Below, piece after piece: positions 7,454-58,715 of a DNA stretch of 64,000 nucleotides (position 1 is its first letter; every line of letters starts with the position of its first letter). Under the pieces are notes generated by a model. It saw nothing but the letters and a program-made list of their open reading frames with translations, was not told where the DNA came from and made no database searches. The stretch is from an uncultured Oscillospiraceae bacterium. Lineage in GTDB: Bacteria > Bacillota > Clostridia > Oscillospirales > Oscillospiraceae. The stretch covers positions 1 through 64,000 of the forward strand of contig CAKTPO010000011.1 of the NCBI GenBank assembly GCA_934591845.1, in the 5' to 3' direction. Both the position numbers and the translations under genes were made by a program.

Positions 7454-7474
7454 GCCATGAATACTGCCCATCAT

Positions 7475-7499: not shown

Positions 7500-7566
7500 A
7501 TTTCCACCCATGTCGCAAAATTATGTAAACTATCTTGTCATTCTAACTATGAAAGGAAAATGCGAA

Positions 7567-9615
7567 ATGAAAAACCTTACCAAAGCTTTGTCCCTCTTTC
7601 TGGCGCTGACCATGTTACTGTGTTTCCCTGTCGCTGTCTCCGCCGCCGAGTTGGAGGATGCAACCATTGACGAATCCCGAACCGGCTCTCTGACCATCTA
7701 CAAGTACGATCTGACCAACGCCGAAAAGGACGGCGTGTGGGATTCCAGCTATGTTTCTACCGGCGTTTATGACGAAACCGGGGTAAACAATGTTCTGGGC
7801 GGAAATGCTTCCTCCACTCTGGGCAACGGCGAAACCGGCTACGGATATGCCATTAAGGGTGTCGAGTTTACCTATGTAAAGGTGGCCGACATTTTCCAGT
7901 ACGGCGAAACCGAAACCACCGACGGTCATGTGGAAATCCTGTACGCCGTGGACAAGACCAAGGGTGCGGACTTCCTGAAAGCCCTGGGTCTGGCGGACGG
8001 AAAGAATCGGTACGAAAAAGCGGATGCTCTGGATGAAACCAAGTATTTCTACCAGTCTGATGTGCTGATCTCCGCCCTGTCCGCCGGCTTGACTGCCAAT
8101 GCCACCACTGTCAAGAACGCCATGGAGCGTTATGCTGCCACCAACGGTACAGCCATGCCCCTGACGGATTCCTACGGCAAAAGCAAGGTCGAGAATCTTC
8201 CTTTGGGTCTGTATCTGGTTGCAGAAACCAAAGTCCCTGAAATGGTTGTTTCCACTACTGATCCCTTCCTTGTGTCTGTGCCCATGACCTCCGTCAATGG
8301 CACCAACGCCAATGACGGCGGCACCCGCTGGATCTACGACATTACCCTGTACCCCAAAAACCTGACCGGCATCCCCTCTCTGGAAAAGACTCTGCGGGAG
8401 AGCAAGAACGACACCGGCAAGACCGACACCTATGCCCATACCGGCACTGCCTCTGCCGGTGATACCATCGACTACCAGATCATTTCCACCCTGCCCAGTA
8501 TTACCTCCGAGGCAACCTACCTGTCCTGCTACACCTTTATTGATACTCTGTCTGCCGGTCTGACCTACACCAAGGGGGATGTAACCTTAGAAATCTTCTC
8601 CGATGCCGCCTGCAAGAATCCTGTGACCGGCTGGAAAGAAGCGGACGGCTATTTCACCGTTTCCTATAACGATACCAAGGACGGCAAGACCGTTATGACC
8701 GTGGAAATGACCGCCAAGGGTCTGGCAGAAATCAATAAGTCCAAGACCGTCTATGCCGATGCCGGCATGGTCAACTCCGGCTTCTCCGACTGCACCATGC
8801 GCCTGACCTACACCGCTAAGGTAGACAGCGATAACTCTCTGGTGGTGGGCGACAAAGGCAACGATAACAAGGTGGTGCTGACTTGGAAGCGCAGCTCCCA
8901 GAATTACTACGATACTCTGGTGGATGACTGCCATGTGTTCAGCTACGGCATTGACCTGACCAAGCTGTTCTCCGATGGCAAGGGCGATTTCTCCAAGGTG
9001 GCGTTTCTGGTACAGAACAAAACCGATAATTACTTTGTAAAGGCTCAGCTGAATGAGGACGAAGGCGTTTACTATGTGACCGGACATACCGAAAGCAAGG
9101 AAGATGCCACCCACTTTGTTCCCGTGAAAACCGGCGATACCAAGGGCCGGATTCTCATTAAGGGGTTGGAGGACGATACCTATACCATGACCGAAGTTCG
9201 CACGGACAGCGGCTATGTACTGCTGAAACAGGATATTGAGGTGGTGATCTCCCAGAAGGAAAGTGCTGATAGCTGCACCGTCTATTCTTCCGATGCGCTG
9301 GGTCTGATCCAGAACGATCCTCGCTATGCCCAGGTCATTCAGAGTGACGCCGATCTGAAGAACATCCCCCAGAAGCATCTGGAACACAAGTTGCTGACCG
9401 CTTCCGCTACTGTCAGCGGCAAGAACGTCAACATGGTGGAGGACAACGGCAGCACCAACGCCGAGGCTCCTTTGACCGTGGTCAACACCCGTGGCTTTGA
9501 CCTGCCCAAGACCGGTGACAACGGAACTATGATGTTTACTGTGGTCGGAATTCTGCTGATGGTTGGCGCTGTATCCGTTATTGCACTGGTCAGCCGGAAG
9601 AAGCGCTCTGTCTAA
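7567..9615 (+). CDS. SpaA-type isopeptide-forming pilin with LPKTG sortase signal
   Basis: A 682-residue secreted protein. Its signal peptide (MKNLTKALSLFLALTMLLC) ends near AELEDA. The middle carries pilin-type domains with an E-box-like segment (YTMTEVRTDSGY). The C terminus has FDLPKTGDNG, a membrane helix and RKKRSV, the cell-wall sorting signal. The layout matches major backbone fimbrial subunits of Gram-positive sortase-assembled pili. The ATG at 7567 is preferred because the upstream open frame runs through the terminator at 7475-7499, and the signal peptide begins exactly here. Two sortase genes follow directly, which supports pilus assembly. Its place in the transfer operon suggests an adhesive pilus for cell contact during conjugation (inference). 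Confidence 0.88.
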   Translation: MKNLTKALSLFLALTMLLCFPVAVSAAELEDATIDESRTGSLTIYKYDLTNAEKDGVWDSSYVSTGVYDETGVNNVLGGNASSTLGNGETGYGYAIKGVEFTYVKVADIFQYGETETTDGHVEILYAVDKTKGADFLKALGLADGKNRYEKADALDETKYFYQSDVLISALSAGLTANATTVKNAMERYAATNGTAMPLTDSYGKSKVENLPLGLYLVAETKVPEMVVSTTDPFLVSVPMTSVNGTNANDGGTRWIYDITLYPKNLTGIPSLEKTLRESKNDTGKTDTYAHTGTASAGDTIDYQIISTLPSITSEATYLSCYTFIDTLSAGLTYTKGDVTLEIFSDAACKNPVTGWKEADGYFTVSYNDTKDGKTVMTVEMTAKGLAEINKSKTVYADAGMVNSGFSDCTMRLTYTAKVDSDNSLVVGDKGNDNKVVLTWKRSSQNYYDTLVDDCHVFSYGIDLTKLFSDGKGDFSKVAFLVQNKTDNYFVKAQLNEDEGVYYVTGHTESKEDATHFVPVKTGDTKGRILIKGLEDDTYTMTEVRTDSGYVLLKQDIEVVISQKESADSCTVYSSDALGLIQNDPRYAQVIQSDADLKNIPQKHLEHKLLTASATVSGKNVNMVEDNGSTNAEAPLTVVNTRGFDLPKTGDNGTMMFTVVGILLMVGAVSVIALVSRKKRSV

Positions 9616-38593: not shown

Positions 38594-39358
38594 ATGAAAT
38601 ATTACGAAAAGCTGCTCGCCCTTGGCTGCGTGACCCGTTCCCAGTTGGAACAAGTCACGGGAAGCCCATCCGCCGCTGACTGGCTTTGCCGGGAGTATCA
38701 GCGGAAAGGATACATGGAACGAATCAAACGGAATCTGTATGCTGTTATCAGTCTGGAAACAGGTCAGTGTGTTGCAAACCGATATCAGATTGCCTCTCAC
38801 ATCAGTGATGATGCCGTCGTTTCTTACCACAGCGCATTTGAATACTATGGATACGCCAATCAGGTGTTCTATGAGGTTCAGGTTACAAGCGTCAGCCGTT
38901 TCCGTGCGTTCAACTATGATGGAATTACCTATCGTCACATCGGTCAGCGAATTGAGGACGGCGTATTGGAATTACCCAATGGTATCCGTGTAACCTCCTT
39001 GGAACGCACTGTCATTGACAGCATCAATCTGTTTGAAAAAACAGGCGGGTTGGAAGAACTCCTGCGCTGCCTTGCCTTGATTCCTACTCTGGATGAAAAA
39101 GGGCTGATCGCCTGCCTGTCAGAATATGACAGCGGTATCCTCTATCAAAAGGCAGGGTATGTCCTGTCCCATTTTGCAGAGGCAATGGGATTGTCTCAAT
39201 CGTTCTTTGAAAGCTGCGCAGCACACATCCCAAAAGGGAAGAACTATTTCTATGATTATGGACAGGACTTTGTGTGGCACGAAAAGTGGAAGCTCTATGC
39301 CCCTGCGGATCTTATGCAGCTTATTAGCAAGGGAGTGACTGACTATGATGCAATTTGA
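38594..39358 (+). CDS. abiEi: AbiEi-type antitoxin, type IV toxin-antitoxin system
   Basis: A 254-residue protein. The N-terminal winged-helix DNA-binding part (MKYYEKLLALGCVTRSQLEQ, WLCREYQRKGYMERIKRN) is followed by the AbiEi core (VVSYHSAFEYYGYANQVF, GIRVTSLERTVIDSI). It neutralises AbiEii without direct binding (type IV) and represses the operon. GGAGG lies before the ATG, and the stop overlaps the toxin start by 14 nt, so the pair is co-translated. The cassette stabilises the element and can abort phage infection. Confidence 0.87.
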   Translation: MKYYEKLLALGCVTRSQLEQVTGSPSAADWLCREYQRKGYMERIKRNLYAVISLETGQCVANRYQIASHISDDAVVSYHSAFEYYGYANQVFYEVQVTSVSRFRAFNYDGITYRHIGQRIEDGVLELPNGIRVTSLERTVIDSINLFEKTGGLEELLRCLALIPTLDEKGLIACLSEYDSGILYQKAGYVLSHFAEAMGLSQSFFESCAAHIPKGKNYFYDYGQDFVWHEKWKLYAPADLMQLISKGVTDYDAI

Positions 39359-40319
39359 CCGTATAACCTTGGGCAAACAGGCCCGTGAATTGGGTTTTGT
39401 CAGGGATACATTTGAAAAGGTATGCCGCCTGGCTGATATTCTGATGTTTTTCCAGAGTGATTCTCTGTTGTCCGAGAAAATGGCATTGAAAGGCGGTACG
39501 GCAATCAATCTGACCATTTTCAATCTTCCTCGCCTGTCTGTGGACATTGATCTGGATTTTTCAGATGATCTTCCTCGAGAGGAGATGCTGGCTGTAAGAA
39601 AACAGGCAACGGAAAAGGTCAGGAAATATATGGCGGCAAGAGGGTATACCCTTGGACTTAACTCAAAATTCTATCATGCGCTGGATTCCTTTGTTTATGA
39701 GTATCAGAATGCGGGTGGCATGAAAGACAATATTAAAATTGAAATCAACTATATGCTCCGTTGCCATGTTTTACCGCCGGTAAATAGAAGCGTGAATCTC
39801 CCGTGGCTTCAACAGGATCTCGCTGTTTTGAGCGTTGATCCTTTGGAAATTTACGGGTCTAAAATCGTTGCACTTCTGAATCGGGCAGCACCAAGAGATT
39901 TGTATGATATCCATACCATGCTGCAAGCCGGTTTGTTTGATGAATCTCAGGAACCGATGCTAAGAAAGTGTGTCATGTTCTACAGTGCCATTGGCTCTGA
40001 AGTCTGCCCGGAGCAATTTGACTTAGACAAGATCGCCACAGTATCCCAGCAGCGCGTCAAAACCGACCTGATCCCGGTACTTCGCAAGGGCACATGGTTT
40101 GATGTTTCCCAAGCGCAGGAGAAGGTCCGTCATTACTTAGGTGATGTGCTTGTGCCGGAACCCGATGAACTGGCGTTCTGGGCAGCGTTCCGTCAGAAGC
40201 AGTACCAGCCAGAGCTGCTGTTCCGTGATGAAGCAGTTCTGACTCGAATCAGCCAACACCCCATGGCACTCTGGAAATGCAGTGAGAAACAGAGGAACCG
40301 CCCCACGCAGGAAAGGTAA
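39345..40319 (+). CDS. abiEii: AbiEii-type nucleotidyltransferase toxin
   Basis: A 324-residue nucleotidyltransferase. The GG.S-like motif with acidic residues reads LKGGTAINL and SVDIDLDFSDD near residues 45-70. The helper motif GSKIVALLNR and RDLYDIHTM is near residues 165-190, as in the AbiEii/AbiGii family. The toxin transfers nucleotides to cellular targets (tRNA in studied relatives) and stops growth. All visible catalytic residues are present, so it should be active. It lies between mobC and the relaxase. Confidence 0.88.
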   Translation: MMQFDRITLGKQARELGFVRDTFEKVCRLADILMFFQSDSLLSEKMALKGGTAINLTIFNLPRLSVDIDLDFSDDLPREEMLAVRKQATEKVRKYMAARGYTLGLNSKFYHALDSFVYEYQNAGGMKDNIKIEINYMLRCHVLPPVNRSVNLPWLQQDLAVLSVDPLEIYGSKIVALLNRAAPRDLYDIHTMLQAGLFDESQEPMLRKCVMFYSAIGSEVCPEQFDLDKIATVSQQRVKTDLIPVLRKGTWFDVSQAQEKVRHYLGDVLVPEPDELAFWAAFRQKQYQPELLFRDEAVLTRISQHPMALWKCSEKQRNRPTQER

Positions 40320-45139: not shown

Positions 45140-46462
45140 TCACGATAAGTGATTCCCTGAAAACTGAATAACATGGTGGAATCTCTTTTCTTCAACACTA
45201 TAGTACATTGTTGCAATACCATGGTATTTTTTTACAATTCGTTCAATACTGCGAAGGCCCACACCATGAACGTTTTTATCCTTTTTACTCGTGTAAAAGC
45301 CTCCGTGTCCATCTGGTACTGGAACAATGTCACAGGTATTTTCGACAGAAATCACCACAACTGATTGCATAGTATGCCAAGTAACGGATAGTTCAATTTG
45401 CTTTTCTTTAGAGCAAGCCGCAGATTCAAGCGCATTGGACAGGAGATTCCCGTACAGTGTTGTAACACTTGAGGCATCCATGAATTTAGAGATATTTTCC
45501 CGAACATCGCATTGGAAATCCACGCCTGCCTCTCTGCACTCGTCACGGAAGTGCAGCAGTAGGAGATTTAGAATGGAATCGGTGCAGAGCTTTGCCTGCT
45601 TTGAGGGAGCAAATGATATATTTAGCTCCGAGACATACGATTCAATCGCAGTAGCCCCCCCTTGCTTTGCAAGAGCATCAATAACTCCTAAATGCTTCTT
45701 TATATCATGCACAAGGATTCTCTGATTTTCATATTGCTCTTGTAGTGCTTCATAGTAAACAATATCTGCCTGTTCCTTTTGGATACTAAGCTGTAAGGTC
45801 AAATAATCTTCATTTGCTTGTGCAATATAATTATACAGCACAAGGAAAATAAGATTCACAACGAGTAATGATAAAACTGTAACCAACATCATCACACCAT
45901 CTTTTGCTGTTGCACCTGATGACATACCGTAGTAAACAGTAAAAATAGCTATGCATGCAGATATTATTGGTAAGCTACAGAATAACACCATAAAATGTGG
46001 CTCGCTGCTAATGTACTTCTTTGGTGCAATAAATCGAGATCCCAGTACAGAGAATGCTAAGTACAGGATTTTGCTGAGAATAGTCAGTACAATTAGGGAA
46101 TATAAGTCGTTTGTATGGGCTGCAAACTCAAATTTGGGTACTCTTACTCCATTTACCAGTATAGAAAGGATTTCAGCTCCTGTCATAATAAAACACAGAA
46201 AAGCTATGTGCAAGAGAGCTGATTTTTTGTTGCACTGATAATTAAAGCGGATAAGAGTATAGTTTACAATGCAGCATGTAATCGCATTCAGCGTGGTATT
46301 GTTCAACCGAGAAATAAAGGTTAAGGCGACATACCCCACAGCAAAGGTTAATGTGATGACATACGGTCTTTTTTTTCGTGGGAATAGGTAATCAAAGTAT
46401 AACCAAACTGTTAATGCCTCAGATAGAAAACTTATTGCATACCAAAAATTTTCTCCAATCAT
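45140..46462 (-). CDS. agrC: AgrC-like sensor histidine kinase
   Basis: A 440-residue sensor kinase. The N-terminal half has six or seven membrane helices (to about residue 215), as in peptide-sensing AgrC/ComD kinases. The phosphate-accepting His is in ILVHDIKKHLG near residue 250, the N box in YGNLLSNALESA near 345, and the G box in GHGGFYTSK and VHGVGLRSI near 400. Its stop is near the IS66 right end. It overlaps the response regulator by 4 bases. It is expected to sense the peptide made by agrD/agrB at 47839-48584. Confidence 0.88.
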   Translation of the reverse strand: MIGENFWYAISFLSEALTVWLYFDYLFPRKKRPYVITLTFAVGYVALTFISRLNNTTLNAITCCIVNYTLIRFNYQCNKKSALLHIAFLCFIMTGAEILSILVNGVRVPKFEFAAHTNDLYSLIVLTILSKILYLAFSVLGSRFIAPKKYISSEPHFMVLFCSLPIISACIAIFTVYYGMSSGATAKDGVMMLVTVLSLLVVNLIFLVLYNYIAQANEDYLTLQLSIQKEQADIVYYEALQEQYENQRILVHDIKKHLGVIDALAKQGGATAIESYVSELNISFAPSKQAKLCTDSILNLLLLHFRDECREAGVDFQCDVRENISKFMDASSVTTLYGNLLSNALESAACSKEKQIELSVTWHTMQSVVVISVENTCDIVPVPDGHGGFYTSKKDKNVHGVGLRSIERIVKKYHGIATMYYSVEEKRFHHVIQFSGNHLS

Positions 46463-47172
46463 TTCATGCTCTCCATGTACATCAAATAAGTATCCTTAAA
46501 CTGCGAATATTTCCTTCTCGACAAAAAAGTGGTCTTTTCTTTGCCGCAATACTTCAAAACAACCGTATCTTTGCTTATGTTGTAGATAAACCGCATATTG
46601 ATAACAAAACTACGGTGTGTAGAATAAAAGCAGGGCAATGTCAGAACCTGACGCCAATATTCGATGTTTTTATTGCTAACAAACTGTCCGTCTGTGGTAT
46701 GGACCATCACTTTGCGTTGAACAGTTTCTACACACACAATTTCCTCTGCACGCCTGTTAAATATACCGTCGTTTGTGGAAATCTGATATTCATGGGATTC
46801 AATATAGTACGCATAAATAGCATCTTTTAGATTTCGAAATAAGCGGTTCTTATCAATCGGTTTTGAAAGATAGCGAAATACATGAAATCTCATGGCCTCG
46901 TCCAAATAGTCAGGGTATCCGGTAACAATGAATATTTTGATTTGGGGATTCAATTCTTTCAACTTTGCTCCAATGTGGATACCGCTGACCCCTGGCATTT
47001 CAACATCTAAGAAAGCAATATCTGCCCGGGTTTCGTTTTGAATCAGCATATCACCGCTTTCGTAGACAGCGAACTCTGGCAGAGTGCCTCCAAACGACCG
47101 AAAAAACTCTTGTACAAGTTTCTGGAGTTGCGCAAGTATGATTGGATCATCATCACAAAAAACAATTCGCAT
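46459..47172 (-). CDS. agrA: AgrA-like LytTR response regulator
   Basis: A 237-residue regulator. The receiver domain starts MRIVFCDDDP (acidic pocket), with the phospho-Asp in AFLDVEMPGVSG near residue 55 and the Lys in RYLSKPI near 105. The LytTR DNA-binding domain runs from about 135 (ISTNDGIFNRRAEEIVCVE, CFYSTHRSFVINMRFI). LytTR regulators bind direct repeats upstream of agr-type operons. Confidence 0.9.
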   Translation of the reverse strand: MRIVFCDDDPIILAQLQKLVQEFFRSFGGTLPEFAVYESGDMLIQNETRADIAFLDVEMPGVSGIHIGAKLKELNPQIKIFIVTGYPDYLDEAMRFHVFRYLSKPIDKNRLFRNLKDAIYAYYIESHEYQISTNDGIFNRRAEEIVCVETVQRKVMVHTTDGQFVSNKNIEYWRQVLTLPCFYSTHRSFVINMRFIYNISKDTVVLKYCGKEKTTFLSRRKYSQFKDTYLMYMESMK

Positions 47173-47838: not shown

Positions 47839-48003
47839 ATGACACAAAACAATTTAACAGCAAAACTGATGCAATACCTTGCAAAATATGTAACCTCGGT
47901 ATTGTGTGTGATCCTGTTTGTTTGCGCTAACACAAATTCTAGTTGTGTACTTAATCAGTCCGCCCCCCCGAACGGCCTAAAGAAGTATAGTATCTTCAAA
48001 TGA
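47839..48003 (+). CDS. agrD: AgrD-like autoinducing peptide precursor
   Basis: A 54-residue precursor. It has an N-terminal amphipathic leader with a hydrophobic helix (LMQYLAKYVTSVLCVILFVC), then NTNSSCVLNQSAPP with the Cys expected to form a thiolactone, and a charged tail (GLKKYSIFK). Length, layout and position directly before agrB match AgrD of Clostridia. The exact peptide cannot be read off. CVLNQ, or a slightly longer core, is a reasonable guess. AAGGAGG is 8 bases before the ATG. A run of seven C lies in the coding part just after the core. The stop overlaps the agrB start (ATGA). Confidence 0.85.
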   Translation: MTQNNLTAKLMQYLAKYVTSVLCVILFVCANTNSSCVLNQSAPPNGLKKYSIFK

Positions 48004-48584
48004 TACGCATTATTTCGGAGGCCATCACAAAATGGTTGGAGTCGGAAGGGACCGTTGCGTGTAACGAACGCACATTGTTCCAATATGCAGCATATAGTTT
48101 CTTGTTTGGCATGTTGCCTATCGGAATTGCTCTGATTTGGGGGATATGCTTTGGCATGATCCGGGAAGGAATCGTCCTGATGATACCCTATATGTTGCTG
48201 AGAAAGTTTAGTGGTGGCTTTCATCTGAAGTCATCTGGTTTGTGTTTGGTCATAACTACTGGCGTGCTTGCATTATCAATGGTGCTGAGCAAATACATCG
48301 CTTCTACAGAAAATGCAAGAATATTGACTTTTTTTGTATCCTTGTCCGTGCTTGTTCTGTGCATATTTAGTCCCATTGAAAATCAGTCACGGAAGCTGAC
48401 GGACAAGGAACGAATTTTGTTTAGAATGATAGCAAGAATCCTTGCAATTCTTTCATTTATTCTTTATTTACTTTTATTGCGTAGTGTTTCAGTACGATAT
48501 ATTTCGGCATTTGGTGTTGGAATTTTACTTGTGGGCTTACTGCAAATCCCGTGTATTATCAGTCGGTATTTGCATCGCACATAG
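48000..48584 (+). CDS. agrB: AgrB-like peptide-processing membrane protease
   Basis: A 194-residue membrane protein with five or six hydrophobic segments. The catalytic pair is in RKFSGGFHLKSSGLC: His and Cys seven residues apart, as in AgrB. The downstream ENQSRKLTDKER cytoplasmic loop is also typical. It cuts and cyclises the AgrD precursor. Translation is coupled to agrD. Confidence 0.9.
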   Translation: MIRIISEAITKWLESEGTVACNERTLFQYAAYSFLFGMLPIGIALIWGICFGMIREGIVLMIPYMLLRKFSGGFHLKSSGLCLVITTGVLALSMVLSKYIASTENARILTFFVSLSVLVLCIFSPIENQSRKLTDKERILFRMIARILAILSFILYLLLLRSVSVRYISAFGVGILLVGLLQIPCIISRYLHRT

Positions 48585-49227: not shown

Positions 49228-49737
49228 ATGAATACATTAAAACGACCCATAGTCGCAGTTCTGCTGCTTGTCATCTTGATGTCGATTTTAGCAGTTTCTG
49301 CCTACGCAGTAGGCGACCCCTATTATACACACGTTAGCGGTTTTAAGGAGCTTTACAACGGCTCCACTCTGAATGCGTACATCCGTGCTGCACAACGATT
49401 TTTACTGTGTTATGGTGGCGAAGCAAGAAATAACATCATTAGCGGTGGCGGTGTGGATGGCGGATATGGGTACTATACCGGGGAAGCTGTAAGGGAATAC
49501 CAAGAAGACAAATGGCCGTTCAATTCAGAGGAGTGGGATGGCCGTGTTGGCCCGAAGACATGGGAAAAAATCGCTGTCGATCTTGAATACTCTATGGGTG
49601 GGACAAACTATGAAGATCTGTGTGTTAACGGCAGACAGGTTCTATACATTGATACCCGTGCAGAAGGCTATAGATACTACAATTACAATGGAGACGAATA
49701 CAACGGGACTAAAGACCGTTTTATCGTTTCAAAATAA
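49228..49737 (+). CDS. Secreted protein with one peptidoglycan-binding domain
   Basis: A 169-residue protein. The signal peptide is MNTLKRPIVAVLLLVILMS..., cut near VSAYA. A PG_binding_1-type domain follows (residues 45-115): YIRAAQRFLLCYGG, YYTGEAVREYQED and DGRVGPKTWEKI are its usual segments. The C-terminal 50 residues are Tyr/Asn/Gly-rich with no known domain. No catalytic domain is present, so it should bind the wall rather than cut it. It sits next to the agr locus and could be one of its targets (inference). Ribosome site GGGAGG. Confidence 0.8.
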   Translation: MNTLKRPIVAVLLLVILMSILAVSAYAVGDPYYTHVSGFKELYNGSTLNAYIRAAQRFLLCYGGEARNNIISGGGVDGGYGYYTGEAVREYQEDKWPFNSEEWDGRVGPKTWEKIAVDLEYSMGGTNYEDLCVNGRQVLYIDTRAEGYRYYNYNGDEYNGTKDRFIVSK

Positions 49738-49792: not shown

Positions 49793-50267
49793 TCCAGCAA
49801 TAGGGGATGATGGATTTGCAAAGCCTACACAATTCAAATCTGCTCATGTGGGAATGGATGAGGTTGTCAAAACACACTTTCCCGAGCACAGCCGAAAACA
49901 CTTGCTCATTCGTTATTATCATTTCCTTGGTGCGAGAACTGGAAACATCCGTATTTTCTCGGGCAAATATTCAGAAAGTTGTGCTGTAATCGCAGTAGAC
50001 ATTCGAGAACACATTATCTAACTCGATATCGAAGACAACAAAGATTGAAGAAGTTCGTCTCCCTAAAGATAAGCTTGCAAGGTACAAAGCCTTATTCATT
50101 TGTACTTGAAAGAGCATCCGGCACAATAAGTATTCAATTCAGCACAGCGCAGAGCTTACTCTGTAGTATGCCCGCTTTCTCAGGTGTTTTTCAACAGATT
50201 GCGTTAAAGCTACCTACTTTGTCTCTCTGGCTGTCTTGAAACGCAGCGGAAAGGAATGGTCATATAT
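49793..50267. other. Region without a recognised gene
   Basis: Roughly 475 bases with only short open stretches in several frames and no good ribosome site. It looks like decayed sequence. The ribosome site of the lipoprotein gene (GGAAAGGA) is at 50249-50255. Confidence 0.45.
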
Positions 50268-51740
50268 ATGAAAAAATATATTTTTTTACTCGTATGTACG
50301 CTTCTGATGTTTTTGACTGCTTGTCAGGCTACACCTAATAGCAATGCAATTATCAGTAAGAATGACGGTTCATTCGATACAAATAAAGTTCAATCTGCAG
50401 ATGAACCGGATTCAGCGGTAACAGCAGAACCCGTTCAGGTTCTGGAAACTTTCCAGAGTACCGATAAATCAGTTACCTTTAATATAGCTGTGCAGAATTT
50501 AAATGAAATTACAAACATGCCTGTTCTGGAGGTTTGTCCGCACTTATTAACAGGAGAAGATGCCCGCAATATTGCAACTGCACTGTTCGGCTCGGAAGCA
50601 GTTTTTTATGAGGCAGAGCCATCAAAAAATGAACGTTTTTCGAAGGAAGAAATCATTGATCAAATTTCTAGATGGTCTCCATATACTTCTGCAGAAGGAA
50701 TGAGTTTGCTGTTTCCCAATAAGGACCTGAACGCTTGCGCATCCTATGCAGAGACAATGCAAGATTGTATTACATATTTGTCAACAGAATTTTTGAATTC
50801 TGATGTAGAAGATTATAAACGGCCTTTGTGCCAATGGCAATTTCATAATAGTTCCTACTACAAGGATAGAACTACCGATTTAGACTCAAATACTTCTTTT
50901 CAAGAAAATGAACAAATTTCCGCTTGGACACCAATAGGAAATGGTATGTATAGCGTTTTCAGAGCAGATCGTCGAGATAAGGCAGATTATAAATTGAATA
51001 ATGTTTATGTTACGGCAGCGGCAGGAGGCCCCCTTGGGATAGATCATAAGATTTTTTGTGCGGAAAACCTTAGAACAAGTGCCCCTACCCAAGAACAAAT
51101 ATCAACGGTAGTCGAAAGGGCCCAGAGAATGGTGAATAATATGGGCTTAGGTTCTTGGGAAGTAGGTTCCGCTCATGTAGAAGAAAATAATATGGGGAAT
51201 TGTACTGAGTATCGTATTCTCGTAGATGCATTTCCCGTTTTGGAAGGAGTAATGGCTTTAGAGCGTCCACAACTTAACAACTTGAAGAGCAAAGAGATTT
51301 ATGCGTCAAACTACTATCTAACAGAAGCAAATTTCTCTTTTTCAGCAGGTGGTGAATTGGTTGACTTCACGCTTTATTCTCCCATTGACATTACGCAGAT
51401 AGTTAATAAAAATGCAAAAACCTTAACTTTAGAAGAATTATTAACTCGAGCAAAAGAGCAGTTGTCATATAGTGACGCCTATCAGTATGGTGGTATTTTT
51501 GAAGGAATGCAAGAAGATGTAACTTGCGCAGTCCAGATCGCACAGATTGACTGTGGTTTAACCCGTGTTAAAGCACCGAATACAGATAATACATATTATT
51601 ATGTTCCTGCTATAATGCTGGTTGGAGATGTGGAATATTGCATAAAGAACACAGGTGAAATGTTTTTCTTCAATGAAAATGTACCGCTTCTGATGTTGAA
51701 CGCCGTGGATGGTACAGTTATTCCACTTGGCAACGAATAA
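50268..51740 (+). CDS. Lipoprotein, DUF6034-like
   Basis: A lipoprotein of about 490 residues. The signal peptide ends in a lipobox (LLMFLTACQA), so it is anchored on the outer face of the membrane. A Ser/Asp-rich linker leads to a large extracellular region (from about residue 60) with no catalytic motif. The general layout is like DUF6034-type lipoproteins of gut Firmicutes. The ATG at 50268 starts the signal peptide directly; an ATG at 50256 is also possible. GC is low compared with the ICE core. The gene ends about 90 bases before the ABC module. Confidence 0.7.
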   Translation: MKKYIFLLVCTLLMFLTACQATPNSNAIISKNDGSFDTNKVQSADEPDSAVTAEPVQVLETFQSTDKSVTFNIAVQNLNEITNMPVLEVCPHLLTGEDARNIATALFGSEAVFYEAEPSKNERFSKEEIIDQISRWSPYTSAEGMSLLFPNKDLNACASYAETMQDCITYLSTEFLNSDVEDYKRPLCQWQFHNSSYYKDRTTDLDSNTSFQENEQISAWTPIGNGMYSVFRADRRDKADYKLNNVYVTAAAGGPLGIDHKIFCAENLRTSAPTQEQISTVVERAQRMVNNMGLGSWEVGSAHVEENNMGNCTEYRILVDAFPVLEGVMALERPQLNNLKSKEIYASNYYLTEANFSFSAGGELVDFTLYSPIDITQIVNKNAKTLTLEELLTRAKEQLSYSDAYQYGGIFEGMQEDVTCAVQIAQIDCGLTRVKAPNTDNTYYYVPAIMLVGDVEYCIKNTGEMFFFNENVPLLMLNAVDGTVIPLGNE

Positions 51741-51827: not shown

Positions 51828-52580
51828 CTGAAGAATTCTATTTTCATTTGGTTACAACAAGGCTTTGGCATCCGCTTTGTGCTTGGCGTTTCCGCTATTC
51901 TGGCTGTAATTTGTGCATCCTCCTTTAACGCTCTGTTGCAGATGTTGCGTGAATCCACATTACAACCTAGTGGGTATCATATGACCTTCCTGCTAAAAGC
52001 GCTTACATCCGATACGGTGTCACCTTTTGTGGCTATCGTTTCGATTCTCCCCTTTTCAGGTAATTATGTGGATGAGGTAAAAAGTAAGTTTGCCCGTTTT
52101 TCCATGCTGCGGACCGGCTACTCCACCCACCTTCTCAGCCGGATTGTGGCCTGCTTTCTTCTGGGTGGTGCTGTGATTTTGGCTGGAGTATTGACTGCGT
52201 ACTTTGCAAGTGTGTTGATATTCCTACCCATGGAGAAAACGGGAGACAACGAAGTGAGCCAGCTTCCGGAGCTTATCGAGCAGTGCGTCCTACTGTTTCT
52301 AAACGGCGGCTTCTGGGCGGTGCTGGGCATGACCATGAGCACCGTCATGGAGAGCAAATACATTGCCTACGCTTCGCCCTTCGTGGTGTATTACTTGCTG
52401 GTGATGCTCTGTGAGCGCTATTTCCCCAAGGCTTATCTCATTTACCCCCGTGAATGGCTGAATCCTTCAGAGAAATGGCCCATGGGGACTTGGGGGGTAG
52501 CCCTCTACCTGTTGGAGCTGACCGCCCTGCTGGGACTCATATTCTACCACCGAGGAAAAAGGAGGCTGGAACAGCTATGA
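51828..52580 (+). CDS. ABC transporter permease-like membrane protein A, possible CTG start
   Basis: A protein of about 250 residues with around six hydrophobic segments, of the ABC-2-like kind. The open frame has ideal spacing from AAGGAGG (51814-51820) only if it starts at CTG (51828), giving (M)KNSIFIWLQQGFGIRF. The first GTG at 51879 would cut into the first membrane helix and has no ribosome site. Its stop overlaps the start of the next permease. With the following two genes it makes an ABC exporter. Confidence 0.75.
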   Translation: MKNSIFIWLQQGFGIRFVLGVSAILAVICASSFNALLQMLRESTLQPSGYHMTFLLKALTSDTVSPFVAIVSILPFSGNYVDEVKSKFARFSMLRTGYSTHLLSRIVACFLLGGAVILAGVLTAYFASVLIFLPMEKTGDNEVSQLPELIEQCVLLFLNGGFWAVLGMTMSTVMESKYIAYASPFVVYYLLVMLCERYFPKAYLIYPREWLNPSEKWPMGTWGVALYLLELTALLGLIFYHRGKRRLEQL

Positions 52581-53473
52581 AAAAGTTGCATCAAATTTTT
52601 TCTATAGCGGGCTACAATTTTAGACTGTGGCGGAAGAATCCACGGATCATCGTCACCTTTGCATTGGCTTTTGTTATGTGCTTTTTGCTGTCCGACAAGG
52701 CTGTATGTTTTGCCATCGACCACAACACCACGATGCAGATTGTGGAGGTTTTTATCTGGAATTTTGGTGACAGCAATTCCATCCTCCTGTCCTCTGTGCT
52801 GCTGGTCATGCTCTTTGCAGATATGCCCTTTCTGTCATCAGGAACGCCGCTGTATTTAGTGCGTACCAGCCGCCGGGTGTGGATCACCGGGCAGGTGGTG
52901 TACACCTTGGCAGCCACCTTTGTGTACCTGGTGTTTGTGCTGATCTGCACGGCATTCTTCTCCATGCAGCAGTCCTTTGTGGGAAATATGTGGAGCCCAA
53001 CGGCGGCCATTTTAGGCTATACCAACGCAGGTGAACGGGTGGCGATTCCCGCTCTGGTGAAAACTCTGGAAATGAGCTGGCCTTATCAGAGCATGGTGTC
53101 CATTTTCTTCCTCATGCTGGGCTACACCTCGGTTATGGTGATGATCATGCTGGTATGCAACCTTCGCTTTGGTCAGGCCGCAGGCGTGGTCAGTGTGTTG
53201 GTGTTCAGTGTCTACGGCATTCTTCTGAAGCCAGACACCATTCAGACCATCCTGCGGCTACCGGATGAAGCCTACTACATTGCCAATGTGACCATTGGCT
53301 GGGTGTCTCCGCTGAACCAAGCTACCTATCATATGCACAATTTTGGCTATGACAAGCTGCCAAGACTGTGGCAATCTTACTGCATTTTTGGGGCATTGGT
53401 TATTTTGGGTTATATAGCAGCCCTGCAAGCGGCAAAACGCTACAATTTCAGTTTTGTTGGAACGGAGGGATGA
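52577..53473 (+). CDS. ABC transporter permease-like membrane protein B
   Basis: A 298-residue membrane protein with about six to seven hydrophobic segments. It starts MKKLHQIFSIAGYNFRLWRK, a basic end before the first helix, and includes LYLVRTSRRVWITGQVVYTL and VVSVLVFSVYGILL. It is probably the second permease half of the same exporter, resembling membrane parts of peptide or lantibiotic-immunity ABC-2 systems. It overlaps permease A by 4 bases. Substrate unknown. Confidence 0.75.
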   Translation: MKKLHQIFSIAGYNFRLWRKNPRIIVTFALAFVMCFLLSDKAVCFAIDHNTTMQIVEVFIWNFGDSNSILLSSVLLVMLFADMPFLSSGTPLYLVRTSRRVWITGQVVYTLAATFVYLVFVLICTAFFSMQQSFVGNMWSPTAAILGYTNAGERVAIPALVKTLEMSWPYQSMVSIFFLMLGYTSVMVMIMLVCNLRFGQAAGVVSVLVFSVYGILLKPDTIQTILRLPDEAYYIANVTIGWVSPLNQATYHMHNFGYDKLPRLWQSYCIFGALVILGYIAALQAAKRYNFSFVGTEG

Positions 53474-53474
53474 T

Positions 53475-54116
53475 ATGGAAAATGTTATTGAAGTAGAGAG
53501 CGTGTGCAAGTCTTTTGGTGATGAGCAGGTGCTGAAAAGCGTTACCCACACCTTTGAAGAGGGAAAAATCCACGGTATTGTTGGCAACAACGGCTCTGGC
53601 AAAACTGTTCTTATGAAGTGCATCTGCGGTTTTCTTCGGCCCGACAGTGGACGGATTTTGGTTAATCACGAGGAAGTGGGACGGGATCGAGATTTCCCGG
53701 AGGATATCGGCATCATCATCGAAACCCCCGGATTTCTGCCCCATCTATCCGGATTTCAGAATCTGAAGCTACTGGCCTCCCTGCGGCGGATCGCCAACAA
53801 TCACACCATTTACGATGTTATCAAACTGGTAGGTCTTGATCCGGATATGAGGAAGCCTGTGGGCAAATACTCTCTTGGCATGCGGCAGCGGCTGGGCTTG
53901 GCTCAAGCCCTTATGGAAAATCCCAGTATTCTCATTCTGGACGAGCCATTTAATGGCCTTGATAAGTATGGTGTCCTGCATATCCGTAATCTTATTAAGG
54001 GTCTGCGGGAGCAGGGCAAGACTGTGATCCTTGCCAGCCACAATCAAGTGGACATTGACGAGCTGTGTGACACTGTCTGTGAGATGGATGCAGGCAATTT
54101 AACGGTGGTGAGATGA
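53475..54116 (+). CDS. ABC transporter ATPase, intact
   Basis: A 213-residue nucleotide-binding protein. Walker A is GNNGSGKTVL near residue 38, the signature is KYSLGMRQRLGLAQ near 135 (SLGMR in place of LSGGQ, seen in this kind of exporter), and Walker B is ILILDEPFNGLD near 157. The switch His is in ILASHNQVDIDEL. All needed residues are present. It overlaps the next gene by 4 bases. Confidence 0.92.
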   Translation: MENVIEVESVCKSFGDEQVLKSVTHTFEEGKIHGIVGNNGSGKTVLMKCICGFLRPDSGRILVNHEEVGRDRDFPEDIGIIIETPGFLPHLSGFQNLKLLASLRRIANNHTIYDVIKLVGLDPDMRKPVGKYSLGMRQRLGLAQALMENPSILILDEPFNGLDKYGVLHIRNLIKGLREQGKTVILASHNQVDIDELCDTVCEMDAGNLTVVR

Positions 54117-54751
54117 TGGATGAATTATTAAAGGTGGAGGATCTCCGTACATATCGGCCGGGAGGCTGGGAGCATCCCTTCTCCCTAACAGGTTCTTCAG
54201 GAGAGAGAATATTTATTCAGGGAACTCGGCGCAAATGTAACTACTTGTTTGAGTTGCTCTGTGGCCTTAGACTACCTGACGAGGGCAGCGTGTCCATTCT
54301 TGGAAACAGTCTCTATGAACTTCCGGAACAAGAACTAATTCCATTTCGTTGCCGCCATATAGGGGGCGCTCCCTGTGGAGGAGGACTTACGCCAGAGCTG
54401 CGCTTGATTGATCAGGTAACGCTCCCCATGCGTCTGATGGGATTGTCTGAAGTAGAAATCAGAGATCGTATCCGTGGGACGGCATTTGATTACCTTCCGG
54501 TTCACAGCCTTTTCAACCCAGCCAGCCGTTCCACTGACCGCACAAAGGCACTGACCACGATCCTACAGGCCACAATCATGGGACAAGAGGTGCTCATTTT
54601 CAATTCCCCATTCGAGGAACTTTCAGAGATTGCTTCCAATCTAGTTTGGCAACAGTTGATGGAGGTCCTGAAAAATAACACACTATTTATTTATATGAGC
54701 AGCAATCCGGCACCCTTACAGGTGCCATGGACCCGACAGCTGCGGATTTAA
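54113..54751 (+). CDS. Degenerate ABC ATPase-like protein (no Walker A)
   Basis: A 212-residue protein with an ABC ATPase outline (LLKVEDLRTYRPGG, LCGLRLPDEGSVSILGN, LIDQVTLPMRLMGLS) but no working site. In place of Walker A it has QGTRRKCNYLFELL, in place of the signature SRSTDRTKALTT, and in place of Walker B VLIFNSPFEEL with no Asp-Glu. It follows the intact ATPase with a 4-base overlap and would be made in equal amounts. It could be a structural partner in an asymmetric ATPase dimer (inference). The frame is complete, so it is not simple decay. Confidence 0.75.
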   Translation: MMDELLKVEDLRTYRPGGWEHPFSLTGSSGERIFIQGTRRKCNYLFELLCGLRLPDEGSVSILGNSLYELPEQELIPFRCRHIGGAPCGGGLTPELRLIDQVTLPMRLMGLSEVEIRDRIRGTAFDYLPVHSLFNPASRSTDRTKALTTILQATIMGQEVLIFNSPFEELSEIASNLVWQQLMEVLKNNTLFIYMSSNPAPLQVPWTRQLRI

Positions 54752-54764
54752 TGGGAGGAAAGCA

Positions 54765-56498
54765 ATGCTAAAAAAAAACACATCCCTTATGCTGGTAGCT
54801 GTCCTGATGTTTTCACTGAGCATTCCAGCTTATGCGTCTGAGGTAGAAAACACGGCTCCAACGGTAACCTCGGATGTTACCGAGCCGGCAGAGCAGCCGG
54901 AAACTACTGAACCAAGCGTTCCAGCCACCACAGCCCCTGCTCAGCCCACAACCACAGAACCGCCTGAAACGACGGTTCCGACACAGCCCCCAGAAACAGA
55001 ACCGCCTGCAACAACAGCTCCAACACAACCGACGGAAACGGAACCGCCAGAGACCACGGAACCTACACAGCCCGCAGAGACTGAACCGACAGAACCCATA
55101 GCGACGGAGCCAGAGCAACCAACAGATCCCAGTGATCCCCCTACTGAGCCGACGGTTCCAACCACTCCAACAGAACCTCAGATACCGACTGCTCTTGAAA
55201 TTGATACTGAGCACATTTACCATGGCATGGATATGGCCTACGAAGATGGCTATATTCCCAGAGTTTCTGACGGCTATATGCATCTGGTTCTGCCGCTAAA
55301 GACCAACGGTGATATTTATGCAGAGAAGATCGATGTATCCCTCTCCATGGACACCAGCCCGTCCTCTCCCTTTGTAGTGGAAAATTTCAGAAAGACCTTC
55401 TATCTGGATGATGTGACTCCAAAGGATACTGAGGAAGAGCAGGAAGTGTTCTTGGTGGAGTTTTTTGTGGGGTTGTCCGATAACCGCACAAACGGCATCT
55501 ATCCTGTTACAGTGAACATTACCGGCTTCGACAGCACTGCCAAGCCTATAGACTGTACCTTCACAGTCTATGTGACCATCACCGATGGCAAACCTGCAAA
55601 TCCCAAGGCACCCGCCCCGGAAGTACCCACAGCAGAGCCTGTGGTGTATATCTCCAACTCCGTCATGGAGCCTGCAAATCCCCAGGCAGGCGAAGAATTC
55701 ACTCTGACACTGACCTTGAAAAATTCTCTGACCACCAAAAGCGTCAGGAATATGTTGGTAACCGTAAACACCGGAAATGTTCAGATTGATCTTGTTGAGG
55801 ACAGCAACATCTTCCCTGTAGATAAAATCTCTGCTGGCGGTGAAACGGAACTGACCCTACGGTTCAAGACTGACCCTTCTATTCCTTCCGGCAAATATCC
55901 TCTGACTTTCTCTTTTAAGTATGACAGCAGTAAAACCCTGAATCTGTCATCTTCCGGTACTGCGGTTGTATCTATCCAACAGCCTGCCAACATGGAACTG
56001 GTGATGCCGAGAGTGACATCGTCCGTCAGCGTTGGTGAAACCATTCCTCTGTCCTTCCAGGTGATGAACATGGGCAGAAGTTCCATGCACAATGTCCGCT
56101 GTGTGGTGTCCGGCTTTGGATTGGTTCCCTCCAATACGGGCTATATCGGGACGATGGGGCCTGGTTCTTCTTCGACCACCAAGGTGGAACTGTACATTAT
56201 TGCTTTGAATGCCAGCGAAGGTAACGAGAACGGTTCACAGTACGGTGACACCACGGGAACCGTGAAGCTTCTTTATGAGGATGAAAGCGGCAGCCCTTAT
56301 GAACAGGAGTATACCTTTGATACCACAGTCAACCGTCCGGTGGTGGATATTTCTCAAATGACCCAAGAGCCGGAGGAGGAAGAAACGGCAGGTCAGTGGT
56401 GGATTTCCGTAACCATTTTAGGGGGTGTTATCCTTGCAGCAATCGCAGCAATACTTATTACCCGAAAGAAGGGTAAGCGTGGCGGTGCCTATCTGTAA
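54765..56498 (+). CDS. Pro/Thr/Glu-rich surface protein, CARDB/COG1361-like, membrane-anchored
   Basis: A 577-residue secreted protein. The signal peptide (to about residue 25) is followed by a repeat-rich linker (about 35-140) built of TEPPETT and PTQPTETEP units. Then come beta-rich domains of CARDB/COG1361 style (about 145-530), including a VMEPANPQAGEEFTLTL strand and SVSVGETIPLSFQVMNMG. Near 555 a membrane helix and a KKGKRGG tail anchor it. The linker would span the cell wall. No LPXTG is present. COG1361-like proteins often sit beside ABC exporters; their role in them is not clear. Confidence 0.8.
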   Translation: MLKKNTSLMLVAVLMFSLSIPAYASEVENTAPTVTSDVTEPAEQPETTEPSVPATTAPAQPTTTEPPETTVPTQPPETEPPATTAPTQPTETEPPETTEPTQPAETEPTEPIATEPEQPTDPSDPPTEPTVPTTPTEPQIPTALEIDTEHIYHGMDMAYEDGYIPRVSDGYMHLVLPLKTNGDIYAEKIDVSLSMDTSPSSPFVVENFRKTFYLDDVTPKDTEEEQEVFLVEFFVGLSDNRTNGIYPVTVNITGFDSTAKPIDCTFTVYVTITDGKPANPKAPAPEVPTAEPVVYISNSVMEPANPQAGEEFTLTLTLKNSLTTKSVRNMLVTVNTGNVQIDLVEDSNIFPVDKISAGGETELTLRFKTDPSIPSGKYPLTFSFKYDSSKTLNLSSSGTAVVSIQQPANMELVMPRVTSSVSVGETIPLSFQVMNMGRSSMHNVRCVVSGFGLVPSNTGYIGTMGPGSSSTTKVELYIIALNASEGNENGSQYGDTTGTVKLLYEDESGSPYEQEYTFDTTVNRPVVDISQMTQEPEEEETAGQWWISVTILGGVILAAIAAILITRKKGKRGGAYL

Positions 56499-57474
56499 AA
56501 TTGCATTTAAGACCATCCTGCGATATGGCTGGGCGGCTATTATTTTCTTAACCTTGGGGCTGTATTTCCTGTTCCCTGCCTGCAAGAGCTGGGAGGAAAT
56601 TCAGGCGGAGCGAAAGCAGCCGTATGAGTTGCAGGCAACTGTGATGGGTACGGCCCAATTGGAAAAGTACATTGAAGTGGAAAATATTAAGGCGGTCAGT
56701 CCTGTAATTTCCTTCAATACCAAATTGACCGATGTGAATTTTACACTGAGCAGTCAGGTCAAGGCGGTATCTGCTGACTATTTGAAGTTGGATTTGAAAG
56801 ACGGCTGTTTGTACCAAGACCAGTCCAATATGCCGTTTCTGATTCTCAATCGCTATGCATCAGAGCATTTTGTGGATGAGAACAAAAAAGAGTCCATTGT
56901 TCAGGTTAACGATAGTGTTACGATCAATCTGAACGGTACAGAGGAAAAAGCCATCATCTGTGGCATCTTTGAGGATGATCTGGAATCTCCTGTAATTTAC
57001 ATGAGCTACTACGAGGCAGCGAAGTACTTCCCAAAAGAGGAAATAGTAAATCTATTATTTCTTCTGACGGGCAAGGGAGCCGCTGAACAAGCAGTGAAAG
57101 ACTTAGGACATCTGAAAGTCAATGTTTCCCTTGATGAGAATGCTATCGTTCGTTGGGAACTGCTTCAACAGCAGGCTGTGCAGTATTTCATAACAGCTTT
57201 AGGGTTCCTATCCTGTTCCATGGTTTTGATGCGCAATCAGCTAAAATGTGAGATAAGCGACCAGAGAGCGGAACGGCAGAGACTCTTGATGTCTGGATTG
57301 ACGATGGGGCAGTTGGGCTGGATTCTAAAACTACGTTTGCTTTTTTCTTATGGAATCTGCCTCTGTGCGGCAGTATTTGTGGCGTGGTTATTCGATTTAC
57401 TTTCGATAACAGCTGCTATAGCGGAGGCTGTACTGTTGCTATTGCATTACCTGGTTACACAGATGGCAGAATAG
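56479..57474 (+). CDS. MacB/FtsX-like membrane protein
   Basis: A 331-residue protein. An N-terminal helix (LRYGWAAIIFLTLGLYFLF) is followed by a large extracellular part like a MacB core (about 40-220), then helices near residues 235-250, 280-300 and 305-325. This is the layout of FtsX-type permeases, shortened: only part of the four-helix set is clear. It starts at GTG 56479 (or 56485) inside the end of the surface protein gene, so it is translationally coupled. It probably works with the intact ATPase at 53475 or in a complex with the surface protein. Confidence 0.65.
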   Translation: MAVPICKIAFKTILRYGWAAIIFLTLGLYFLFPACKSWEEIQAERKQPYELQATVMGTAQLEKYIEVENIKAVSPVISFNTKLTDVNFTLSSQVKAVSADYLKLDLKDGCLYQDQSNMPFLILNRYASEHFVDENKKESIVQVNDSVTINLNGTEEKAIICGIFEDDLESPVIYMSYYEAAKYFPKEEIVNLLFLLTGKGAAEQAVKDLGHLKVNVSLDENAIVRWELLQQQAVQYFITALGFLSCSMVLMRNQLKCEISDQRAERQRLLMSGLTMGQLGWILKLRLLFSYGICLCAAVFVAWLFDLLSITAAIAEAVLLLLHYLVTQMAE

Positions 57475-57492
57475 GTCTTTTGGGAGAAGATT

Positions 57493-57870
57493 ATGCATCA
57501 TAATGACGTACAGCAGAAAACAGGTTTGCCGAGGATTTCGCCACGTGAGTTTAAACTGTGCCTGATTGTCTGGGAACAGGGGCCACTAAGCAGCTCCGAA
57601 CTTAGAGAACTCTGTCTGGAACGGTTTCAGTGGTCGAAATCTACGACCTTTACTTATATTCGGAGACTGGGTGAGAAAGGCATCCTTGTAAACGAAGATG
57701 CTATGGTGAGAATGTTGGTGTCCAAAGAAACGGTGCAGCAAGCTCGTTTAGATATGTTCATTGAGAGGGAGTTTGAAGGTTCTCCAGCTGCGCTGCTCTG
57801 TGTTTTGAAGCGTATGTATCAGAATGGAACCCAAAAAGTACCGGTGGAGATGTTTGAAAAAGGTTCATGA
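57493..57870 (+). CDS. BlaI/MecI/CopY-like transcriptional regulator
   Basis: A 125-residue protein with a winged helix (ISPREFKLCLIVWEQGPLSS, WSKSTTFTYIRRLGEKGIL) of the BlaI/PenI family. It has the family's C-terminal helices (REFEGSPAALLCVLKRM). BlaI repressors are usually paired with a BlaR-type sensor protease, and none is next to it. The gene ends 4 bases before the signal peptidase gene. It is a likely regulator of this module. Confidence 0.8.
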   Translation: MHHNDVQQKTGLPRISPREFKLCLIVWEQGPLSSSELRELCLERFQWSKSTTFTYIRRLGEKGILVNEDAMVRMLVSKETVQQARLDMFIEREFEGSPAALLCVLKRMYQNGTQKVPVEMFEKGS

Positions 57871-57874
57871 AAGT

Positions 57875-58678
57875 ATGGATAAGGAACTACAAAAGCAAAA
57901 TCAGAAGAAAAAACAGGGCGCAGCGATTTTTGCCATATTTATCATCTTGTTTGGGCTGACAGTTCTTGTTCGTAATAATATTTGCTGTATCGCAATGGTA
58001 GACGGGGACTCAATGTACCCGACCTTGAAAGATCGGGAGCTTTACCTTGTGGATAGGTACAACTATGTTCCATCTTGCGGAGATATTGTGTTGGTTCAGG
58101 TGAACCCAGATGTGGTTGGGACCTCTCATATCGTGAAAAGAGTTATTGCAGTAGGCGGCGATACTGTTAGAATCGGCTATGTGGAAAACAAAGTGTATGT
58201 GAACGATCAGCCTTTGGATGAACCCTACATAAATGCGGAAGATGCTGATCCTATGAAGTTGAAGGGGGAATTGCGTGACAGGACGATCACCATTCCAAAG
58301 GGCTACGCATTTGTTATGGGGGATAACCGCAATCATTCCATGGACAGCCAAAGTATCCGGATTGGGCTGATCCCTGTGACAGACTTGATCGGTAAAGTGA
58401 GTGTTCACATTAACTTGGAACCATGCTTGAATGAATATGTCGATCGTTGGAATAAAAAGGAAATAAACTGGAAGACTAGAAAAATGAATATCAATAACAC
58501 ACTCGAAGAAAAATCTTATTGGGTCCATTGTCCTGTCTGCAAAATGAAAACAAAAACCAAAGTATACCCCAGCACTGTCTTAGTCAAATTCCCGTTATAC
58601 TGTCCCAAATGCAAAAAAGAGTACTTAGTTGATGTAGTCCAACTAAAAATGGCATTGAGCAACGAGCCAGACGCCTAA
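57875..58678 (+). CDS. Signal peptidase I fused to a Cys-rich KTR domain
   Basis: A 267-residue protein. An N-terminal membrane helix (GAAIFAIFIILFGLTVLV) is followed by the SPase I core: catalytic Ser in GDSMYPTL near residue 46, catalytic Lys in HIVKRVIAVGGD near 90, and box E GYAFVMGDNRNHSMDS near 150. After about residue 205 a second domain starts: WVHCPVCKMKTKTKVY and FPLYCPKCKKEY, four Cys in two CxxC pairs, matching the small Cys-rich KTR family that is normally a protein of its own. The peptidase likely matures the exported proteins of this module. The ATG is chosen at the start of the basic cytoplasmic end. Confidence 0.85.
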   Translation: MDKELQKQNQKKKQGAAIFAIFIILFGLTVLVRNNICCIAMVDGDSMYPTLKDRELYLVDRYNYVPSCGDIVLVQVNPDVVGTSHIVKRVIAVGGDTVRIGYVENKVYVNDQPLDEPYINAEDADPMKLKGELRDRTITIPKGYAFVMGDNRNHSMDSQSIRIGLIPVTDLIGKVSVHINLEPCLNEYVDRWNKKEINWKTRKMNINNTLEEKSYWVHCPVCKMKTKTKVYPSTVLVKFPLYCPKCKKEYLVDVVQLKMALSNEPDA

Positions 58679-58683
58679 AGCGC

Positions 58684-58715
58684 AGAGCCTGCTTCCCAAA
58701 AAGGAAGCAGGCTCT
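58684..58715. terminator. Bidirectional terminator between convergent genes
   Basis: A perfect 13-bp stem (AGAGCCTGCTTCC with GGAAGCAGGCTCT), 6-base loop, then TTGTCATTTTT. It lies between the signal peptidase gene (plus) and the XRE gene (minus) and can serve both. Confidence 0.85.

Follow-up and report, generated by a model that had tools for sequence, protein, structure and literature searches.

The window analysed here, a 64,000-nt stretch from an uncultured Oscillospiraceae bacterium (GCA_934591845.1, contig CAKTPO010000011.1; all coordinates of its open reading frames (ORFs) refer to this stretch), carries a gene cassette that, judged from its sequence, is a conserved, Ytr-like composite of ABC-2-like and type VII ATP-binding cassette (ABC) transporter parts. 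Its surprising part is a selected pseudo-ATPase, E, whose partner permease F has lost the matching coupling motif. We consider it reasonably probable that the cassette is a composite, Ytr-like module of the envelope carried by a conjugative element, in which ATPase B would power a C/D exporter while E, a CARDB protein and F would form an ATP-uncoupled complex, with swappable sensors. The predicted core, in order, comprises a DUF6034 lipoprotein, permeases C and D, ATPase B, pseudo-ATPase E, the CARDB protein and F:

50256..51740, + strand: DUF6034 lipoprotein, core gene (PF19499, 71.3 bits)
51828..52580, + strand: permease C, ABC-2-like (CTG start at 51828 behind GGAGG, or GTG at 51879)
52580..53473, + strand: permease D, ABC-2-like, the most conserved subunit
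53475..54116, + strand: ATPase B, intact (PF00005, ABC_tran, 110 bits; Walker A GNNGSGKT)
54113..54751, + strand: pseudo-ATPase E, with a YtrE/FtsE/LolD-like fold but none of the Walker A, signature, Walker B and H-loop motifs
54765..56498, + strand: CARDB-like surface protein with an N-terminal hydrophobic segment (signal peptide), a stalk rich in proline, threonine and glutamate (P/T/E), a CARDB-like part and a C-terminal transmembrane (TM) segment
56479..57474, + strand: F, FtsX/MacB-type permease (GTG start; four TM segments; degenerate coupling motif)

The original prediction had grouped eight genes at 51828-58678, from permease C to an accessory signal peptidase. All eight are open, on the + strand and tightly packed (spacing in nt: C/D -1, D/B +1, B/E -4, E/CARDB +13, CARDB/F -20, F/BlaI +18), and the unit would start at least one gene further upstream, at the DUF6034 lipoprotein. 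The descriptions of an intact ATPase, an ATPase-like protein without catalytic motifs, a P/T/E-rich CARDB-like protein and a MacB/FtsX-like protein were borne out as well. The E profile finds YtrE, FtsE, LolD and BceA in the PDB, and window E matches neither the Walker A, signature nor Walker B motif, nor any Pfam family. The Pfam match of the CARDB protein is marginal (23.0 bits against a cut-off of 22.7) and no sequence match was found in the PDB; its P/T/E content reaches 74% over residues 36-140, and hydrophobic segments lie at residues 6-24 and 547-565. Window F has no Pfam match up to an E-value of 0.1, hence neither FtsX nor MacB_PCD, and its predicted structure adopts the MacB/LolE/YtrF fold. 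The F protein of a relative with a live E (L163; L numbers are our locus labels) matches both PF02687 and PF12704 above cut-off.

The state of E was scored in 30 compared loci, each being a cassette, a truncated piece of one or a close D (the window, L001-L003, L013-L016, L049, L050, L144-L156, L158, L160, L161, L163-L165 and L183). E is intact in four of them (L158, L160, L163 and L164, all with the full set), lacks Walker A in 21 and is absent from five; a live E is thus found in 4 of 25 E-bearing combined loci, and in all 14 free-standing E-CARDB-F triples that were also collected. The clade of the window has lost the signature too (STDRT, CSQRT, CTVRT), and a second dead clade (e.g., L014 and L016) lacks Walker A but retains a signature-like LSLGE and the Glu of LTEP. 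Dead E is a retained pseudo-ATPase under purifying selection. Its absence from 5 of the 30 loci shows that it can be lost, as would suit a gene that is merely decaying and happens to sit in a mobile cassette. However, no E taken for the dN/dS analysis contains an internal stop, dN/dS amounts to 0.27, 0.19 and 0.22 in three pairs (dS of E being 1.15 in the third), 52 columns are invariant among 10 window-clade sequences and the dead state persists through clades of 5 and 16 loci in the CARDB tree, so that we hold simple decay to be very improbable.

E and F go together. F was detected in each of the 24 E-bearing loci on contigs that extend far enough, and loss of E mostly comes with truncation or loss of F: of the five loci lacking E, L013 has an F of nearly full size and L050 a 248-residue form with two TM segments, seen by eye and below the profile threshold, and no F was found in L049, L161 and L183. 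The FtsX motif ER..[DE]IG..K..G of F, which we take to be the segment coupling it to the nucleotide-binding domain (NBD), is kept in 17 of 17 live-E rows reaching it (3 combined loci and 14 triples; L160 ends before the motif and is outside this count). None of 20 dead-E rows, window included, has it, and it is also absent from E-less L013. In dead-E rows the coupling segment itself is retained with changed residues, and F shows a dN/dS of 0.21-0.41 (three pairs). A whole FtsEX/MacB/YtrEF-type clade may be pictured as having given up ATP, with a pseudo-ATPase scaffold, a permease with a rewritten coupling segment and a passive or sensor-like CARDB-stalk ectodomain unit serving a separately powered ABC-2 exporter; this is a tentative proposal that we place just short of an even call.

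The position of E directly after B, with a 4-base overlap, would also suit another arrangement, in which B and E form one asymmetric NBD heterodimer for C and D, as in exporters whose heterodimer has one degenerate site, and F and CARDB are separate accessories. The LSLGE and LTEP residues retained in the second dead clade point the same way. In the window clade, however, the signature of E is lost as well, and E is therefore unlikely to complete an ATP site for B. Moreover, E resembles YtrE, FtsE and LolD, which are partners of FtsX-type permeases, its loss mostly accompanies truncation or loss of F while C-D-B stays, and the F coupling motif is gone wherever E is dead. We find such a heterodimer decidedly unlikely and prefer to see E as the partner of F.

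As far as the sequences tell, the cassette is conserved in the same order in many Clostridia, and its homologues are not the scattered, unordered genes that would have spoken against the conserved system with ABC exporter, dead ATPase and FtsX-like protein proposed originally. Since the set was mostly collected via CARDB or F, the presence of CARDB is no evidence in itself; the evidence comes from gene order and from the state of E. Scanning genomes with an F alignment (39 of 118 proteins) yielded at least 3 loci, all from Oscillospiraceae metagenome-assembled genomes, each with the complete order from DUF6034 to F. The F profile matched 6 of 300 genomes of one family: four carry the cassette (G003, G058, G219 and G297; G numbers are our genome labels), G061 shows only an F tail at a contig start and G210 has a different ATPase-FtsX pair. 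With the D profile, 34 of 394 genomes of the order were matched, three strongly, one of these places being complete (L003), one consisting of C-D-B-CARDB and a short F (L050) and one of C-D-B only (L049). The CARDB profile matched 82 of 391 genomes of the class (seven with an E-value below 1e-50) and, in two genera, 15 of 35 genomes (16 places) and 18 of 136; all 16 places of the 35-genome sample sit in B-E-CARDB-F. DUF6034 exceeded its cut-off in 8 of 245 genomes and in none of 14 control genomes. The combined cassette occurs in five of the eight (G003, G722, G797, G818 and G849); in G798, DUF6034-C-D-B occurs without CARDB and D is divided between two ORFs, G882 offers only a 4.1-kb contig, and G674, at the cut-off with 27.2 bits, has no cassette. 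Forty neighbourhoods contributed 20 members of the compared set, the 14 triples and six loci kept outside the counts for another layout or an early end (L157, L166, L170, L176, L181 and L182), of which L157 and L166 have a CARDB close in sequence, without C-D-B. A literature search over titles and abstracts of a limited collection found no description of the cassette.

The CARDB tree, built from 29 combined loci and 10 of the 14 triples, gathers the combined loci in one group against the triples (support 95/93), and the dead rows together with L013 and L050 in another (100/99). The D+B tree (28 of the 30 loci) already has the dead rows against the live rows alone as one side of a branch. With all loci considered, its dead rows require two changes, E-less L049 standing beside the window clade, and one dead clade against all others is rejected (approximately unbiased (AU) test, p 0.0001); the CARDB tree does not reject a single dead clade (AU p 0.066). 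Both trees came with long-branch warnings (L050, L158 and others). One death of E followed by losses would be enough, and two deaths also fit. We read the history as that of a live E-CARDB-F triple which would have joined C-D-B and then lost its ATPase function, and in places E and F altogether.

In the exporter half, D is 60-86% identical in 7 relatives and the C homologues, at the same place, are 40-50% identical; the D profile found no chain in the PDB. The strict Walker A pattern of B is present in 29 of the 30 compared loci, i.e., in 29 of 29 where that part is present, the sole miss being L149, a 107-residue piece ending at the contig end, and the signature-like and LDEP motifs occur in 30 of 30. 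D and B have dN/dS values of 0.04-0.11 (three pairs). Among NCBIfam models, TIGR03740 (lantibiotic protection ATPase) comes closest to B, with 191.3 bits, which together with the BlaI/M56, sigma factor and two-component regulators of the relatives, as found with stress-response transporters, would suit lantibiotic or bacteriocin self-protection by a LanFEG-like immunity exporter with accessory surface proteins. This score nevertheless falls short of the cut-off of 309.75 bits, no bacteriocin maturation gene occurs among the Pfam-scanned window ORFs (small precursors were not searched for), and C-D-B exporters free of E, CARDB and F are common: 18 of 20 fetched D neighbourhoods contain C-D-B or, in two where C went undetected, D-B, and none of these 18 has DUF6034, CARDB or F. 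Self-protection of this kind is in our view unlikely, if the strongest competitor of the composite module.

The lipoprotein had been taken as an adjoining gene and possible partner of the system; the second part stands, and mere adjacency does not describe it, as DUF6034 precedes C in 25 of the 26 informative loci and so belongs to the core (L145 is the exception; L013, L049, L149 and L165 end too early to judge). Its cysteine C23 is invariant in 8 aligned sequences. In L002, L163 and L190 (a short contig of the same genome as L160), DUF6034 follows a BlaR1-type M56 peptidase in one fused protein, which is paired with BlaI. Because of this fusion and of its lipoprotein form, DUF6034 is a probable sensor or ligand-binding lipoprotein. 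The M56-DUF6034 fusions beside BlaI at L190 128-3182 and L163 11954-14991 would represent a sensor type of BlaR1-like antirepressors on which we found no paper. Six loci (L147, L148, L150, L151, L154 and L158) have three consecutive DUF6034 ORFs before C, which hints at several sensors or binding proteins per transporter, and L001 carries at 18-2527, directly 5' of its full cassette, a second DUF6034-C-D copy with D cut to 131 aa, a partial tandem duplication.

Regulators differ from locus to locus. BlaI stands beside the cassette in four of the 30 loci (the window, L002, L003 and L163), and in L002 and L003 its gene sits between those of CARDB and F; L003, L014 and L016 have a sigma-70-family factor and, after it, a presumed anti-sigma protein without Pfam match; and a two-component system (response regulator and histidine kinase) lies between DUF6034 and C in L050. 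As these differing regulators accompany the same core, the core is constant and its switch exchangeable.

Around the core, the window contains the following accessory features:

49228..49737, + strand: secreted protein with a peptidoglycan-binding domain, PG_binding_1 (PF01471, 25.7 bits, cut-off 23), accessory
57493..57870, + strand: BlaI-type repressor (PF03965, Penicillinase_R, 47.3 bits), accessory
57824..58678, + strand: signal peptidase I fused to Cys_rich_KTR (PF10502, PF14205; alternative ATG at 57875), accessory
58684..58715, + strand: terminator-like hairpin of 13 pairs just past the last stop at 58678, end of the unit

Both the BlaI-like repressor without a BlaR and the signal peptidase-KTR fusion had been recognised correctly: no M56 antirepressor was found at an E-value of 10 among the 349 window ORFs with a profile of three M56 sequences, and the fusion scores 121 bits with TIGR02227 (cut-off 47). 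As for the eight genes forming one unit, the C/D/B/E/CARDB/F part held and the two last genes dropped out of the core, BlaI with its 4 of 30 loci and the KTR domain with 3 of 30 (the window, L014 and L183). Free-standing Cys-rich KTR-like ORFs lie directly 3' of the cassette in L183 (7820-8026) and L014 (between 330 and 617), the window version being the one fused to a signal peptidase. A PG_binding_1 protein is also near the cassette in L003, L015, L016 and L153. Scanning the window for TACANNTGTA, presumably the BlaI operator, with up to one mismatch gave 16 sites against 14.15 expected, no excess over chance. Likewise, the sigma-70 promoter scan returned 16 candidates against 19.0 expected and we claim no promoter; terminator-like sites number 13 in the region against 10.6 expected, the hairpin at 58684 having by far the longest stem. 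The agr locus, also suggested as a possible partner of the system, lies by the cassette in only 2 of the 30 loci (the window and L015) and is therefore outside the core. It comprises AgrB (48000-48584) and, on the - strand at 45140-47172, a GHKL kinase and a LytTR regulator. A 54-aa ORF at 47839-48003, overlapping AgrB by 4 bases, appears AgrD-like by eye (internal NSSCVLNQSAPP, then LKKY; no Pfam match) and is a possible autoinducing-peptide precursor. The agr-type set of L015 (14395-17195) consists of a LytTR regulator, a GHKL kinase and a weak AgrB match.

The window looks like an integrative conjugative element. It encodes a type IV secretion system coupling protein, a TraG P-loop (VirB4-type) ATPase and a MobA-type relaxase, along with a CD1107-like protein, a topoisomerase and a giant SNF2-domain protein, and beyond the cassette a tyrosine integrase and a possible excisionase (weak HTH_17 match, 21.9 bits against a cut-off of 27). 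Two reverse-transcriptase ORFs (RVT_1; 763-2658 and 15468-17351), one with an HNH match, are possibly group II intron proteins within the conjugative element; an AbiEi/AbiEii toxin-antitoxin pair (38594-40319) adjoins the relaxase, and the transfer region at 4325-9615 encodes two surface proteins of SpaA/pilin type, of which one matches an LPXTG anchor. Viral contigs contained no relative of E or F; matches in phage and plasmid records were confined to ATPase B (4 unannotated phage records) and to the P/T/E-rich stretch (6 plasmid records). PADLOC, run on 9 proteins, matched only ATPase B, on ATPase-bearing models, and indicated no specific known anti-phage defence system.

The composite module that we favour would work as follows. 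B would power an ABC-2 exporter that it forms with permeases C and D (B2CD), and E, CARDB and F would form a second, type VII-like membrane complex, descended from an ATP-driven form and no longer using ATP, in which dead E may now be a structural or allosteric partner of F. Outside the membrane, the CARDB stalk and the F ectodomain could act on a substrate or on wall enzymes, and DUF6034 lipoproteins would sense or bind a ligand. Interchangeable regulators (BlaI with M56-DUF6034, a sigma factor with its presumed anti-sigma, or a two-component system) would activate the unit, most likely when the wall or the lipid II cycle is under stress, a function suggested by these regulators and by the parallel with Bacillus subtilis Ytr. 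The original prediction had offered export and maturation of a surface product, sensing of wall damage or immunity to a peptide as possible roles; by analogy, that parallel favours wall or lipid II stress. A naturally dead E with a rewritten F would fit a module acting without ATP use of its own.

Several points weigh against this proposal. Permeases C and D have no Pfam match and hence no family assignment; the five-gene set of Ytr was recognised by layout alone, C, D and B not having been compared in sequence with YtrC, YtrD and YtrB; and LolD and LolE match E and F as well as YtrE and YtrF do, so that the fold does not single out Ytr. L013 has its near-full-size F without E, and an ATPase gene outside the cassette might supply what a dead E lacks. 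No GntR (YtrA-type) regulator turned up in the Pfam scans of the cassette and the scanned neighbours, which contain BlaI, XRE and LytTR instead; the parts of the Ytr literature available to us describe no CARDB protein; and, according to a 2025 study, Ytr does not consistently contribute to survival of antibiotics (PMC12772383).

Among known systems, those nearest to the cassette include free-standing ATPase-CARDB-FtsX triples of Clostridia, for which we know of no system name. All 14 have the order E-CARDB-F; they differ in that each has a live E and that the fetched stretches showed neither C-D-B nor DUF6034. With BlaI/BlaR1 the window shares a BlaI-family repressor, and L002, L163 and L190 its M56 partner; unlike in that system, the window has no detected M56, and in relatives DUF6034 is the part behind M56. 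DUF6034 would plausibly act as the sensor in BlaR1-like antirepressors and in envelope ABC operons, and such a module may travel on conjugative elements in gut-type Clostridia. MacB, LolCDE and FtsEX resemble window F in fold and in its four TM segments, whereas window F lacks their Pfam match and coupling motif, and the window NBD their Walker A. Type VII ABC complexes are understood as ATP-driven mechanotransmitters; the cassette may be a natural ABC "machine" no longer running on ATP, and its conserved, ATP-dead version would show what the rest of a type VII complex can do without it.

The original prediction knew of no named system with this set, yet the five ABC genes are arranged as in B. 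subtilis YtrBCDEF (PMC8060467, PMC12772383). Like ytrGABCDEF, the cassette is a single operon with an ATPase and two permeases first and an ATPase of FtsE/LolD type and a permease of MacB/FtsX type after them, and window E and F align to YtrE and YtrF of 9o9x. Differences from Ytr are the dead E (window and 20 relatives), the CARDB protein between E and F, the DUF6034 lipoprotein, the place of the window cassette on an apparent conjugative element, and BlaI instead of the GntR-type YtrA. Ytr is modelled as YtrB2CD plus YtrE2F2 (PMC11466899, PMC12772383), and ytrA ytrE and ytrA ytrB double mutants retain the thick wall of the ytrA mutant, the discussion leaving open how YtrBCDEF thickens the wall (PMC8060467). 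YtrE can therefore be dispensable in B. subtilis. The cassette offers comparative material for the question of how YtrBCDEF would thicken the wall without its ATPases and, if our reading is true, the ATP-free clade would be a natural counterpart to the dispensability of YtrE in Ytr-driven wall thickening.

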